Assembly: GCA_001874365.1 (NCBI GenBank)
Contig: MPDF01000020.1
Location: 1 to 33,659, forward strand
DNA: 33,659 nucleotides
Reading direction: 5' to 3'
Source: Gammaproteobacteria bacterium MedPE
GTDB taxonomy: Bacteria; Pseudomonadota; Gammaproteobacteria; Enterobacterales; Psychrobiaceae
In this document: positions 28,934 to 33,659 of the stretch, piece after piece
How the letters are laid out: the number at the start of each line of letters is the position of its first letter
Numbering within the stretch: position 1 is the first letter of the stretch
Made by a program: the position numbers and the translations under genes
Notes under the pieces: model-generated
The model's database searches: none
The model's input: the letters and a program-made list of their open reading frames with translations, nothing else
Told to the model about the DNA's origin: nothing

Positions 28934-29038
28934 GAATAATTCTCTTATTAATCCAGTAAACACTATCATTTCATCTGGTCTTACCTGTGTCAATATATCG
29001 AATGGTTACAAATAATAACCAAACAAACGCAATTACTA

Positions 29039-29066
29039 TTGCGAATCGTTATCATTTACGTATACT
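29039..29066 (+). promoter_or_regulatory. Promoter with overlapping Fur-like box upstream of the DUF4198 gene
   Basis: TTGCGA (29039-29044) and TATACT (29061-29066) are 16 bp apart. TGCGAATCGTTATCA (29040-29054) matches the 7-1-7 Fur consensus TGATAATNATTATCA at 11 of 14 positions. A Fur dimer here would cover the -35 and spacer, the classic layout for iron repression. Confidence 0.7.
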
Positions 29067-29105: not shown

Positions 29106-29894
29106 ATGCGCGCATCTAAAATCATGGTACTTTCGGCTTTAATCGCCAGTTCTACTGCTGCTTTAGCACATACGCCCTACCTACAACCAACATCATTTGA
29201 AGTTAACCGTTCAGGTAAAGTAAGTTTCGATGCGTCTTTCGCTGAAAAATTCTTTGTGCCTGAAGTTGCATTTAACAACAGCATTTTTACGATTACTGGG
29301 CCGTCGGGCAAGCAAGTGACGCCAGAGTTTCTCTCAGTGTTATCTGTTAGAACTATCGCTGAGCACACGCTGAAAGATTCTGGAACCTATCGTGTAAGCA
29401 CTGGCAATCGCTTAGGAAAGATTTTCAAAGTCTATAAAAAAGACGGTGAGCGTCATTCCGCCAAAGACCCTAAAGCGCCCTTACCTAAAGGTGCCAAGCT
29501 ATTATCTTTCTTTCAATCAAATACGAAAGCAGAAACCTACGTCACAAAAGGAAAACCTAGCAAACAAGCGTTAAAAGCAACCAACAGTGGCTTAGAGTTA
29601 GTCATGGAAACACATCCTAATGAGTTGTTTGTTGGCGATGACATTTCAATGAACGTTCAATACGACGGCAAAGCGATTGACGATCTAACCGTTGACGTAA
29701 TGCTAGCAAAAGACCAATTCAGCACCGATAAAGCAGCATATAAAATGACAAGCGAGCATGGAAAGTTACGTCTTAATGTTGATCAACCTGGCACCTATTT
29801 ATTAAGAGCTCGCCACAGAACAAAAGCACCTGAAGGATCAGTAGCGCCTGTTATTAGTAACACCTACACCCTTACGCTAGAAATTATTGATTAA
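29106..29894 (+). CDS. DUF4198 exported protein
   Basis: This 262-residue periplasmic protein has a signal peptide MRASKIMVLSALIASSTAALA (cleavage after residue 21), leaving His at the mature N-terminus (HTPYLQPTSF). DUF4198 proteins are beta-sandwich domains related to NikM-type components and often accompany metal-uptake genes. The C-terminal half (VGDDISMNVQYDGKAIDDL ... GTYLLRARHR) is the typical Ig-like part. The function is not established; an exposed N-terminal His could bind metal, as in CopC-like proteins. It is first in a run of four same-strand genes behind the Fur-like box, with CACAGGATACAACG before the ATG. Confidence 0.85.
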   Translation: MRASKIMVLSALIASSTAALAHTPYLQPTSFEVNRSGKVSFDASFAEKFFVPEVAFNNSIFTITGPSGKQVTPEFLSVLSVRTIAEHTLKDSGTYRVSTGNRLGKIFKVYKKDGERHSAKDPKAPLPKGAKLLSFFQSNTKAETYVTKGKPSKQALKATNSGLELVMETHPNELFVGDDISMNVQYDGKAIDDLTVDVMLAKDQFSTDKAAYKMTSEHGKLRLNVDQPGTYLLRARHRTKAPEGSVAPVISNTYTLTLEIID

Positions 29895-29910: not shown

Positions 29911-30852
29911 ATGAAAAAGACGCAACTACTTGCACTAAGTGCCTTATTCACCAGTTTATTTACACAAGCCGCTTCTCATCACAAATTAGTATTCATTAAT
30001 CAGTACGATGCTAATCAAGATTGGTCGCTGTCGTTGGCGGAGTTTGATAAAGCGCGTGAATCACGATTTAACATCACCGACGAAAACAATGATGGATTTG
30101 TTGACGAAAGCGAATATGTGTTCGAATACAAAAATCGCATGGACAATCAGTTAACGAAAGATCGTCAAGGGCAAATTAAACAAACCATTATTCGTTTTAA
30201 TGCATTAGATAAAAATGAAAACGCACGTATCGACTTAGCGGAATATCAGGGGTCAGGTAAGCGCACCTTTACATATTTCGACACCAATAAAGATGGTGTC
30301 ATCAGCGAGAGTGACCCAGCCCCAAAACGCCGCGCCAAAAAAGCAGAGAAAACGCTCACTGCAACCCAACAGCGAGAAACACAAATTAAAAAACTACCTC
30401 GTGCAAAGCGCGTACTATCAATGCCAACAACACATTCATTTAACGGCTTATTGACTAAATACGATGCAAACGATGATAAAACCATAACGCCTCAAGAAAT
30501 TGCTATTGTTCGCCAAAAAATATGGGATCTGGCGGATGAAAACAATGATGGTTGGATATCTGAGCAAGAATATCTCTATGAATTTGAAGATCGTATGGAT
30601 ATGCAAATTGCTAAAACCCGCAAATCCGCAGTGAAGCAGACTTATGTTCGATTCGGCATCTTAGATAAAGACAAAGACGGTAAAATGACACTGGCGGAAT
30701 ACCAAGCATCGGGCCACCGTAGCTTTAATCGATTTGATACCGATAACAACCAAATAGTCACCTTAGACGAAGCAATGCCGAAATCTTATTCAAAGAAAAA
30801 AGGTAAGAAGAACGTCAAAAAACAAAATGTCGCCAGTAACACAAGCTACTAA
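29911..30852 (+). CDS. Exported eight-EF-hand protein with internal duplication
   Basis: The 313-residue product starts MKKTQLLALSALFTSLFTQA (signal peptide ending near residue 21) with AGGATA upstream. Eight EF-hand loops begin at residues 33, 57, 100, 124 and 185, 209, 252, 276. The second set lies exactly 152 residues after the first, so the protein is a tandem duplication of a four-hand unit joined by a basic linker (137-170). Loops such as DENNDGFVDESE and DKDKDGKMTLAE keep all Ca ligands; loops 3 and 5 are less canonical. A Lys-rich tail follows. It probably binds Ca or another divalent metal in the periplasm. Its role next to apbE and a TonB receptor is unknown. Confidence 0.85.
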   Translation: MKKTQLLALSALFTSLFTQAASHHKLVFINQYDANQDWSLSLAEFDKARESRFNITDENNDGFVDESEYVFEYKNRMDNQLTKDRQGQIKQTIIRFNALDKNENARIDLAEYQGSGKRTFTYFDTNKDGVISESDPAPKRRAKKAEKTLTATQQRETQIKKLPRAKRVLSMPTTHSFNGLLTKYDANDDKTITPQEIAIVRQKIWDLADENNDGWISEQEYLYEFEDRMDMQIAKTRKSAVKQTYVRFGILDKDKDGKMTLAEYQASGHRSFNRFDTDNNQIVTLDEAMPKSYSKKKGKKNVKKQNVASNTSY

Positions 30853-30859
30853 TCGACAG

Positions 30860-30964
30860 AGCTTGTAGCACATCAGCTACAAGCTTAAAAGAATTCAAGA
30901 TTGCGATGAGGATAATCGCAATCCAACACCCAATGATTGATAGTCAGGATAAGAAACTATCAAT
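30860..30964 (+). promoter_or_regulatory. Three consecutive hairpins before apbE, two with AGGA loops
   Basis: Hairpin 1 is AGCTTGTAGC / GCTACAAGCT (30860-30885, loop ACATCA). Hairpin 2 is GATTGCGA / TCGCAATC (30899-30923, loop TGAGGATAA). Hairpin 3 is ATTGATAGT / ACTATCAAT (30936-30964, loop CAGGATAAGAA). All stems are perfect and none has a T run. AGGA in two loops about 37 bases apart resembles paired CsrA/RsmA binding sites in an mRNA leader. Confidence 0.55.
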
Positions 30965-30979
30965 ACCAAGAGCAACATT

Positions 30980-32416
30980 ATGTTTTATCGACTATTAATT
31001 TTATTGGTTGCCTTACCACTAAGTCACCAAGTCTTTGCAACGAAAACCAATGCACAAGTGAATGGTGTGTTAGGGACATCTTTTGATATTACGCTCTATG
31101 GCATTGAGGAGCCTCAGTCTCATGCGGCTATTAGTTCATTACTTAGCCATATTAACAATTTAGAAAATACGTTATCTACATGGCGTAAAGACAGTGAAAT
31201 TAGTCAGTTCAATCGACTCAAACAACTTAATGGTATGTCAGAACATTTAGTGCAAGTACTTAATCTTTGTCATCAATGGGAAAATCAGAGCCAACAACAT
31301 TTTAGCTGTCGAATAGGCAAGATTCACAAACAGTGGCAACAGGCAGTCACGACACAAGTGCTACCCAACCGGATTGCCATGCGACGATTAGCTCGCGACA
31401 TCATCAAAACACCGATGTTCAACTTTAATACAAAGCAATCGGCAATCATCCAATCGCATATTGTCTATGACGTTTCTGCACTTGCTAAAGGCTATATTCT
31501 TGACGATGCTATCAAGTTCATTCGAGCGCATTCACCCAAGGTGACCGGGATTAAACTTAACATTGGTGGTGACCTTGTTTTTTGGGGTAAAAAAAGCCCA
31601 GACTCAATGTGGAATGCGGCAATCGGCCAACATAACCTCATGAACGACAATGATCAATCAACGATTATTTCTATCAGCGAAGGTGCTATTGCTCATAGTG
31701 GCATGGGTGAGCGCGACTTTAGGATAAACCGACGTCAATTTAGTCATATTTTAGCGCCTAAAGAAGGTTGGCCGATTGATACACCGCATAGCGTTAGTGT
31801 CTACGCACGTGACGCAACAACAGCGGATGCTGCTGCAACCATGCTAAGTAATATGGACATTGCAAACGCCATAGACTGGGTTAATAAGCAACAAGATCTA
31901 GAAGCCCTATTTCAAGCCGCTGATGGGCAGAAATATTGGTCTAACAATTGGCAAGCGTTAGTTAAAACAAAATCTAATCAACCGCTAACTCGAATGACTG
32001 TTGACTACCAAATACCGCAGTTTAGTGGCACTGACTATGAACGGCCCTATCTCGCAATATGGTTAACAGATAAAAATAACCAGTTTATTCGTCAGTTGCT
32101 ATTACTAGGTAGTTCAAATCGTTGGGCTCAAGAAAACAAACGCTGGTGGCGAAACATCGGCAGAAAAAATGACAGTATGCTCGATGCACTAGCAAAGCCG
32201 ACTCGTCGCCCTGGCCACTACAGTCTGCAATGGGACGGCTTTGATTTTAATCATAACATTGTTGAACAAGAGCATTTGGTGCTGCATGTAGAAGCCTCTC
32301 GTGAACACGGCGGACACGATTACCAACGCATAACAATAGATTTAGCAACCAATTCACCGATGAGCCTTAACGGCGTCGGCGAAATTGGAAAAACGGTTGT
32401 CACCATTAACCAATAA
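30980..32416 (+). CDS. apbE: FAD:protein FMN transferase (ApbE) fused to a DUF2271 domain
   Basis: ApbE attaches FMN from FAD to Thr/Ser of extracytoplasmic redox proteins. The 478-residue precursor has a signal peptide ending near VFA (residue 20) with no lipobox. The ApbE domain (about 25-330) keeps DVSALAKGY (164-172), NIGGD (194-198) and TADAAAT (281-287, the Mg-site region). The usual HIIDPxTG is HILAPKEG (256-263), with Asp replaced by Ala. Residues about 338-470 match DUF2271 (YLAIWLTDKNNQFIRQLLLLG, RPGHYSLQWDG). The typical stand-alone enzyme is about 330-350 residues. Its flavinylation target is not evident in this window. Confidence 0.88.
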   Translation: MFYRLLILLVALPLSHQVFATKTNAQVNGVLGTSFDITLYGIEEPQSHAAISSLLSHINNLENTLSTWRKDSEISQFNRLKQLNGMSEHLVQVLNLCHQWENQSQQHFSCRIGKIHKQWQQAVTTQVLPNRIAMRRLARDIIKTPMFNFNTKQSAIIQSHIVYDVSALAKGYILDDAIKFIRAHSPKVTGIKLNIGGDLVFWGKKSPDSMWNAAIGQHNLMNDNDQSTIISISEGAIAHSGMGERDFRINRRQFSHILAPKEGWPIDTPHSVSVYARDATTADAAATMLSNMDIANAIDWVNKQQDLEALFQAADGQKYWSNNWQALVKTKSNQPLTRMTVDYQIPQFSGTDYERPYLAIWLTDKNNQFIRQLLLLGSSNRWAQENKRWWRNIGRKNDSMLDALAKPTRRPGHYSLQWDGFDFNHNIVEQEHLVLHVEASREHGGHDYQRITIDLATNSPMSLNGVGEIGKTVVTINQ

Positions 32417-32423
32417 TTTTATC

Positions 32424-32455
32424 TGTTCTCAAAGCCATTAACTTGATTGAGAACA
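32424..32455 (+). other. Hairpin after apbE
   Basis: TGTTCTCAA (32424-32432) and TTGAGAACA (32447-32455) form a 9-bp perfect stem with a 14-base loop, eight bases after the apbE stop. No T run follows. It may attenuate or stabilise rather than fully terminate transcription before the receptor gene. Confidence 0.4.
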
Positions 32456-32522
32456 AACGCCCTGTGCCTAATCACATGACGCGCTGATTAACTGGTGAAA
32501 TGACTCCACAAACAACATTAAA

Positions 32523-32564: not shown

Positions 32565-33659
32565 ATGTTCAAAACTACACCGACGCTACTGGCGGTTGCA
32601 GTCAGTTTATTGATTGCCCAACCTACATTTGCCAACAATGAATTACAAAAAACAACTGTTAAAGACGATAAATCGAAAACAGTGTCAACCAAGAAGAAAA
32701 CAATTACCAGTGCTGATATTGATAAAGAAATGCAAGGTGATATCTACGATGCAACTCGTTATATCGCTGGTGTCGATGTTGCAAACACCGGCAATCGCTT
32801 TGGCGCAAATGGTTTTAATATTCGCGGCATGGAAGGTGATGCAGTCGCAATCACTGTCGATGGTTTATCCCAAGGTGAAAGCTTAAACCCACCAAGTTTT
32901 AGCCGTTATGGCATGTTTAGTTCCACACGTAATGGTGTTGACCCTGAAAGCATGAAAACAGTTACCATTGTAAAAGGTGCAAACTCTGTCACCGCTGGTA
33001 GCGGCGCTTTAGGCGGCGCGGTAATGTACGTCACTAAGGATGCAAAAGACTTTTTATCAAGCGATGCTAACGCATTCAATGGCAATGTAAAACTTGGCTT
33101 TGATGGTCGCAGTGATGAGCAACTAGTGAGTGTTAGCCTAGCGAAACGCTTTGGTGATTTCGAGGCTCTTGCAATTTTAACATCTCGTGAAGGCAATGAA
33201 ACGAAAGCGCATTCTGATGGTTTAGACATCTTAGGTAATGCACGTGGCATTTCTGATCCCCTTGATAAATCACAAACTAATGTCTTATTGAAATTAAACT
33301 ATCAATTAAACGACGCGATGAACATTGGTCTTGTATTTGAAGATTATGACAAAAATAGCCAAGGACAATCGTTGTCACGTGAATCATCGACCTATAGTGG
33401 CTTTCGATTTGACGATGATTCGACGCGTGAACGCATCGGCATTACCTTTAATTGGCAGGCAAACAATGCCGCGTTTGATGAACTAGAGTTAAAATTCAAT
33501 AACCAAGAAGTCTTCACCAGTGGCGTTACCTCATTTGATTACACAAGTCGCGGCGCAACTTATTTGCGCATCGAAGATCGTAACTACCTACAGGACATGA
33601 CGAATTTTAGCGCCGATTTATCGAAAGTCATAGCCAATGGTAATACGACACATAACATC
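32565..33659 (+). CDS. TonB-dependent outer-membrane receptor, N-terminal part
   Basis: The frame is open for 365 codons to the window end. A signal peptide (MFKTTPTLLAVAVSLLIAQP, cleavage after about residue 23) precedes a plug domain with NGFNIRGMEGDAVAITVDGL (about 85-104) and TVTIVKGANSVTAGSGALGGAV (about 129-150). Beta-strands of the barrel then begin (NVKLGFDGR..., alternating polar/hydrophobic). The plug motifs resemble the hemoglobin/transferrin/lactoferrin receptor group more than siderophore receptors, so heme or a protein-bound iron source is plausible. AAGG lies nine bases before the ATG. I see no obvious TonB box. The 3' end is outside the window. Confidence 0.9.
   Translation, partial: MFKTTPTLLAVAVSLLIAQPTFANNELQKTTVKDDKSKTVSTKKKTITSADIDKEMQGDIYDATRYIAGVDVANTGNRFGANGFNIRGMEGDAVAITVDGLSQGESLNPPSFSRYGMFSSTRNGVDPESMKTVTIVKGANSVTAGSGALGGAVMYVTKDAKDFLSSDANAFNGNVKLGFDGRSDEQLVSVSLAKRFGDFEALAILTSREGNETKAHSDGLDILGNARGISDPLDKSQTNVLLKLNYQLNDAMNIGLVFEDYDKNSQGQSLSRESSTYSGFRFDDDSTRERIGITFNWQANNAAFDELELKFNNQEVFTSGVTSFDYTSRGATYLRIEDRNYLQDMTNFSADLSKVIANGNTTHNI

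Follow-up and report, generated by a model that had tools for sequence, protein, structure and literature searches.

The CsrA dimer, in the experiments described in PMC3856055, bridges RNA sites that lie 10–63 nt apart, with an optimum at 18 nt. For repressed targets, the CSRA_TARGET rule, as laid out in PMC4066749, asks for an A(N)GGA motif between -30 and +5 and for at least three sites. The CsrA-activated leaders of flhDC, moaA, and ymdA in Escherichia coli, in the accounts that PMC7652899 and PMC7492729 give of them, use two sites, and two-site activation is described there for leaders without a site at the Shine-Dalgarno sequence. CsrA control of iron storage genes in E. coli is also on record (PMC6686035; PMC7652899). 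With respect to the flavin transferase ApbE, DUF2271 proteins are described as its substrates and DUF4198 as a frequent member of such clusters (PMC8238504), and in Alteromonas macleodii, DUF4198 and DUF2271 genes are described as adjoining iron-responsive TonB receptors, with enrichment under iron limitation (PMC7190382). In one literature search on CsrA with ApbE, we found no earlier report of Csr control of ApbE/DUF2271 systems. Here, sequence comparison leads us to propose that the 127-base stretch before an apbE gene is probably a CsrA/RsmA-type leader, in which a dimer would bridge two hairpin loops (hairpins 2 and 3, below) and set the expression of apbE apart from that of the upstream genes.

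The genes concerned lie in the window, that is, the whole stretch of 33,659 nucleotides that was analyzed:

29106..29894, + strand: DUF4198 gene (PF10670), the first of the operon
29911..30852, + strand: EF-hand repeat gene, upstream of the leader and probably on the same message as apbE
30980..32416, + strand: apbE-DUF2271 fusion (PF02424 and PF10029), the probable target, with an in-frame stop 10 codons upstream of its ATG
32565..33659, + strand: TonB-dependent receptor gene (PF07715), 148 bases downstream of apbE and running off the window

By analogy with known ApbE/DUF2271 clusters, this operon likely plays a role in iron uptake. Between 28900 and 33000, the + strand contains two promoter-like sites, both before the DUF4198 gene; the promoter scan yielded four sites in total, fewer than the shuffle mean of 9.8, and thus offers weak evidence for a single message. 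A promoter-like TTGCGA-16-TATACT precedes the DUF4198 gene at 29035-29066. The counterpart of this segment in the relative G006 reads TTGATAATTATTATCATTTGC, which looks Fur-box-like by eye; in the promoter region before DUF4198 in the window, the Fur-box match is not above background. In G330, a genome from another family, an EF-hand repeat protein like that of 29911-30852 again adjoins a TonB receptor and an ApbE-DUF2271 fusion, and this association across families suggests a shared pathway. The DUF2271 part of the fusion (30980-32416), here as well as in G007, G006, and G330, lacks the [S/T]GA[S/T] flavinylation motif that is reported for ApbE-linked DUF2271 (PMC8238504). In the four fusions, A[KR]PT and then RRPG occupy the position expected for this motif. 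The fused DUF2271 domain may not be a flavin acceptor.

Between the EF-hand stop (30852) and the apbE start (30980) lies an untranslated gap of 127 bases. The three perfect hairpins that a sequence-only reading of this DNA had reported in the gap are indeed present, with stems of 10, 9, and 9 bp:

30860..30885, + strand: hairpin 1, 10 bp, loop ACATCA, without GGA, -15.2 kcal/mol
30886..30898, + strand: A/U-rich spacer, a possible processing site (A/U at 11 of 13 positions; 7 of 11 in G007 and 7 of 8 in G006)
30899..30923, + strand: hairpin 2, stem of 9 bp, GAGGATA in the loop, its GGA at -70 relative to the apbE ATG, -11.3 kcal/mol, pairing probability 0.99-1.0
30936..30964, + strand: hairpin 3, stem of 9 bp, CAGGATAAGAA as the loop, its GGA at -33 relative to the apbE ATG, -6.3 kcal/mol alone

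The same reading placed AGGATAA in the loops of hairpins 2 and 3, with the AGGA cores about 37 bases apart. The spacing is exactly 37 (AGGA starts at 30909 and 30946), and in hairpin 3 AGGATAA is entirely loop, whereas in hairpin 2 it extends one base into the 3' arm, with AGGA itself in the loop. Hairpin 1 has no GGA and lies outside the proposed CsrA element, which comprises hairpins 2 and 3; a strong hairpin, likewise lacking GGA, occupies that spot in each relative too, and hairpin 1 is probably a shield for the 3' end of the upstream message. A further hairpin without a T-run (32424-32455) lies just 3' of apbE (-10.5 kcal/mol for 32417-32470) and resembles hairpin 1 after the EF-hand gene.

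A count of perfect hairpins with stems of 8 bp or more and loops of 4–12 gives 15 for the window, against a mean of 5.45 in 20 Markov copies. The leader accounts for three of the 15, and hairpins 2 and 3 are the only ones among them with GGA in the loop. Two GGA-loop hairpins (stem of at least 8 bp, loop of up to 11) appeared in none of 5000 dinucleotide shuffles of the 127-base leader of the window, and the same count of zero was obtained for the leaders of G007 and G006; a single such hairpin appeared in 6, 22, and 36 shuffles for the window, G007, and G006, respectively. The leaders of the window and G007 contain a pair of this kind and that of G006 does not; a looser, G006-type pair (one stem of 5 bp closing at most 13 loop bases and one of 9 bp closing at most 11), defined post hoc after inspection of the G006 leader, was likewise found in none of the 5000 shuffles of each leader. 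Furthermore, the segment 30853-31000 folds with a z-score of -7.57, a value that none of 200 shuffles equaled. A search of the window against Rfam release 15 gave no match at the gathering score, and a relaxed search of 30700-31100 gave nine matches, all at chance level (E 1.4-8.1).

The EF-hand and apbE genes are present in three of the nine genomes of the genus, namely the source genome, G007, and G006, in which ApbE is 85% and 62% identical, respectively, to that of the window. In both relatives, a pair of GGA-loop hairpins is retained no more than 2 nt away from the positions seen in the window: hairpins 2 and 3 span -81..-57 and -44..-16 from the apbE ATG in the window, -79..-55 and -42..-16 in G007, and -79..-57 and -44..-15 in G006. 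The loop GGAs are 37, 37, and 36 nt apart, AGGA is present in all six loops, and GGA is in the loop of both hairpins in all three species, with the fold of hairpin 3 in the window being contested (see below). One extra GGA occurs in each relative, at -88 in G007 and at -76, within a stem, in G006. Compared with G007, the window has the same base at 18 of 18 stem positions in hairpin 2 and at 16 of 18 in hairpin 3 (34 of 36 jointly), and both changes yield U-G pairs; elsewhere, identity is 64% at third codon positions of the three genes, 8/13 and 6/12 in the spacers, and 11/15 in the last 15 bases. In hairpin 1, one compensated G-C to A-U exchange separates G007 from the window, with four of the six loop bases changed, and G006 has an unrelated strong hairpin (-16.5 kcal/mol) at this position. 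Across the three species, six pairs of hairpins 2 and 3 are changed on both sides with 98.1% of cells paired, in an alignment (A6) that was fitted to the structural model R1 described below and leans towards the structure; hairpin 3 alone contributes four such pairs with 100% of cells paired. This result was equaled by 2 of 500 shuffles, and structures slid along the alignment gave no pair changed on both sides. Two MAFFT alignments of the three leaders (A2 and A4) misplace G006 and were left out of these counts. The G006 counterpart of hairpin 2 is weak, with 5 bp closing a loop of 13, an energy of -3.4 kcal/mol, and a probability of 0.83. The sequence-only reading had named comparison of the leader in relatives among its checks, with a lack of compensatory changes and of conserved loop GGA as a refuting outcome. 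This outcome did not occur: G007 and G006 show compensatory changes and keep the loop GGA and the spacing. On the evidence of these three species, the leader is a real, conserved RNA element.

The same comparison bears on the idea that the inverted repeats, which are perfect over 9 bp at the DNA level, are operators that bind a transcription factor at an internal apbE promoter. The DNA of hairpin 2 matches a Fur-box consensus at 14 of 19 positions, which ties for the best score in the window, but two unrelated places in the window score equally and the leader has no promoter-like site on the + strand. Moreover, the repeat sequences of G006 differ while their pairing is kept, and G007 and G006 contain G-U pairs, which an RNA helix tolerates and a DNA palindrome does not need. 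We consider such operators improbable.

A model built from the window and G007 leaders alone (R1) finds the G006 leader with 23.1 bits (E 0.0007 in 86 kb); it also gives a weak match on the reverse strand of the leader (16.3 bits, E 0.045), as is expected of palindromes. Across the nine genomes of the genus, the best R1 match besides the window and G007 had an E of 0.16, the G006 leader having been missed at first look, and, as far as these matches were listed, a GGA in each of the two loops is absent from all five weak places. A model of all three leaders (R2), applied to 295 genomes of the order under strict filtering and with a small number of initial candidates taken to scoring in each, recovered those three leaders alone. 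A dispersed repeat is unsupported within the reach of the R1 and R2 searches. Searches for apbE in further genomes added little: only G007 and G006, besides the source genome, have full-length matches among 58 genomes of relatives; four of 394 genomes of the order (the source genome, G007, G006, and G330) pass an E of 1e-50; and among 369 genomes of the class, only the source genome passes 1e-60. Around G330, a search of six genomes of its genus and 40 of its family returned only G330, which has the apbE fusion, EF-hand, and receptor genes and in which no clear version of the leader or GGA-loop pair was found.

In RNA folding, which the sequence-only reading had proposed as a check, hairpin 2 of the window is stable, but hairpin 3 is outcompeted by a pairing with one further segment:

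30989..30999, + strand: start of apbE, able to base-pair with 30936-30946, the 5' arm of hairpin 3; the competing helix so formed would surround the apbE start

When the window strand is folded in isolation, this longer helix, which joins early apbE codons to that 5' arm, is predicted to displace hairpin 3, the GGA of which is then mostly paired. The ensemble probability of hairpin 3 is 0.01 in the window, as opposed to 0.71-0.89 in G007 and 0.48-0.54 in G006, and the competing helix has an energy of -12.1 kcal/mol in the window versus -4.4 and -4.5 kcal/mol in the two relatives. Since it is weak in both relatives, the start-enclosing helix is not the conserved mechanism and was ruled out as a conserved switch. 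In the window, CsrA could act by holding hairpin 3 against this helix.

CsrA (PF02599) is encoded in eight of the nine genomes of the genus, including G006 and G007, and was not found in the source assembly, which is 81% complete. The Rfam CsrB model (RF00018) gave nothing above its gathering score in the nine genomes; weak matches (E up to 1) occur in seven of them, yet also in 5 of 14 control genomes, so that the score alone proves little. Read directly, three of the weak-match regions are rich in GGA (18 in 325 nt, 12 in 220, and 10 in 194), compared with 1.8-2.6 per 300 in their flanks (those of the third being counted on the other strand), and further regions of the genus reach up to 19 GGA per 250. 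The loops of these CsrB-like RNAs include AGGATAA and AAGGATA, like hairpin 3 of the window and G007. GGA-rich RNAs of this type, apparently of more than one kind, lie at eight loci (L046, L047, L048, L050, L051, L052, L054, and L055), all below the Rfam CsrB gathering score and candidates for an improved model. No CsrB-like RNA was found in the 81% complete source assembly, which has one terminator-like RF00018 match and none to the G007 RNA.

On a site motif built from 149 partly homologous GGA sites of the CsrB-like RNAs, hairpin 3 ranks 17th of the 431 GGAs of the window and its G007 counterpart would rank 9th, and hairpin 2 has an ordinary context (rank 133 of 431; 117 for G007). The two sites of G006 would rank 62 and 205, the latter being hairpin 3. 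The G at -2 of the hairpin 2 context occurs in 9 of the 149 sRNA sites, and A at -2 is found only in hairpin 3 of G007. Thus, each leader has one site with a good or fair context, the other being carried mainly by its hairpin. The likeness of the AGGA loops to the CsrB-like RNAs of the genus raises the alternative that the gap yields a small sponge RNA, which would titrate CsrA in the manner of CsrB, with apbE not being a target. Two loop sites compare poorly, however, with the 10-19 of the GGA-rich RNAs, the gap has neither a terminator nor a promoter on the + strand, and the near-constant distance to the apbE start favors a role in cis, so that we regard a sponge as very improbable.

There is another way to account for the AGGA loops. 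AGGA is also the core of the Shine-Dalgarno sequence, and its conservation therefore does not single out CsrA. The structure could be independent of any protein, with hairpins that stop exonucleases and mark processing and AGGA loops that serve as ribosome standby or Shine-Dalgarno-like sites to aid a weak apbE start; there is no AGGA near the apbE ATG, each of the three species has a strong hairpin after its EF-hand gene, and the window has one more after apbE. Against this, AGGA is 32-34 nt from the ATG with an intervening stem, a distance beyond that of normal use, a fixed spacing between two such loops would not be needed, and the loop of hairpin 3 matches those of the CsrB-like RNAs of the genus. 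We rate this explanation as rather unlikely. A short upstream ORF coupled to apbE, starting from the ATGAGG of a GGA loop, would have a precedent in the control of iraD by CsrA as described in PMC7652899, and ATGAGG with a short frame does occur in all three leaders. These frames differ, though: that of the window has 30 aa and overlaps apbE, that of G007 shares the apbE reading frame, and that of G006 has 9 aa, with its ATGAGG in hairpin 3, not hairpin 2; of all the explanations considered, we deem this one the least probable.

Under the preferred CsrA reading, one dimer would bind and bridge both loops, the spacing of 37, 37, and 36 nt falling inside the 10-63 nt bridging range. With a message that would start before DUF4198, CsrA would then shift the output of apbE relative to the DUF4198 and EF-hand proteins. 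The sequence-only reading had suggested that translation of apbE and the receptor could be set apart from the upstream genes; the leader can do so for apbE, whereas no finding ties the TonB-dependent receptor gene to it. Its proposal of a CsrA/RsmA-controlled leader is partly supported: the comparative evidence speaks for it, and Csr machinery is present in the genus. The leader has an AGGA core, a primary site in the list of PMC4066749, but the nearest GGA is at -33 in the window, -31 in G007, and -32 in G006 (AGGA one base further), outside the -30 to +5 interval, and the number of GGAs is two in the window and three in each relative, counting GGA motifs only. With sites at -33 and -70 and fewer of them than the rule asks for, repression via a covered Shine-Dalgarno sequence is not indicated. 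The leader also differs from antagonist RNAs of the CsrB/CsrC type in having two GGA hairpins versus 10-19 in the GGA-rich RNAs of the genus.

Because both sites lie outside the ribosome-binding region, protection or activation suits the leader at least as well as repression does. Bound CsrA may protect or open the apbE message, as with flhDC, moaA, or ymdA of E. coli, an outcome that we slightly favor over ribosome blocking: given binding, protection or activation has about an even chance, repression is a somewhat lesser prospect, and any other effect has a slight one. A complex on a hairpin that ends at -16 could also be repressive. In a concrete version, cleavage would occur in the spacer between hairpins 1 and 2, hairpin 1 would guard the upstream 3' end, and the hairpin pair bridged by CsrA would guard the new 5' end of the cut message. 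Such an operon-internal CsrA clamp, by which a regulator of carbon status would tune the flavin-transferase gene of a probable iron-acquisition operon independently of its upstream partners, is offered as a tentative and rather unlikely scheme.

Judged from the sequences, the apbE leader most likely represents a familiar mode of gene control acting on a target for which we found no earlier report. If so, the Csr system would control one gene inside a probable iron-uptake operon, beside its known control of iron storage in E. coli, and an operon-internal clamp would link it to the ApbE/DUF2271 systems. The leader would, moreover, be a small, testable example of paired loop sites that lie upstream of the ribosome-binding site and at a distance from it, an arrangement with few worked-out mechanisms. 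It would also indicate that raw sequence can reveal a conserved regulatory RNA that no Rfam model matches.

Among known systems, the CsrA-repressed leaders of glgC, cstA, and pgaA, as presented in PMC4066749, share with the apbE leader AGGA sites, their presentation in loops, and a pair spacing of 10-60 nt, but each of them has three or more sites, with one falling at -30..+5, and neither feature applies to apbE. The CsrB-like RNAs of the genus (RF00018) share AGGAUAA and AAGGAUA loops on short stems, but these RNAs have many sites, whereas the apbE leader has two, in cis to apbE, and no Rfam match. The E. coli flhDC leader, which CsrA protects from RNase E in the account of PMC7652899, likewise has two sites far upstream of the start, although these are at the natural 5' end of the message, whereas the apbE message, under our proposal, would first need cutting. 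The CsrA-activated ymdA leader of E. coli, as described in PMC7492729, shares two leader sites upstream of the ribosome-binding region, with GGA at or near a hairpin, and its GGA at the Shine-Dalgarno sequence is not bound by CsrA. CsrA acts on ymdA by opening a hairpin in which the Shine-Dalgarno sequence is hidden, whereas no conserved start-hiding helix was found in the apbE leader (one is present in the window only) and its loops are already open. Finally, unlike the ymdA leader, the apbE leader sits inside an operon.
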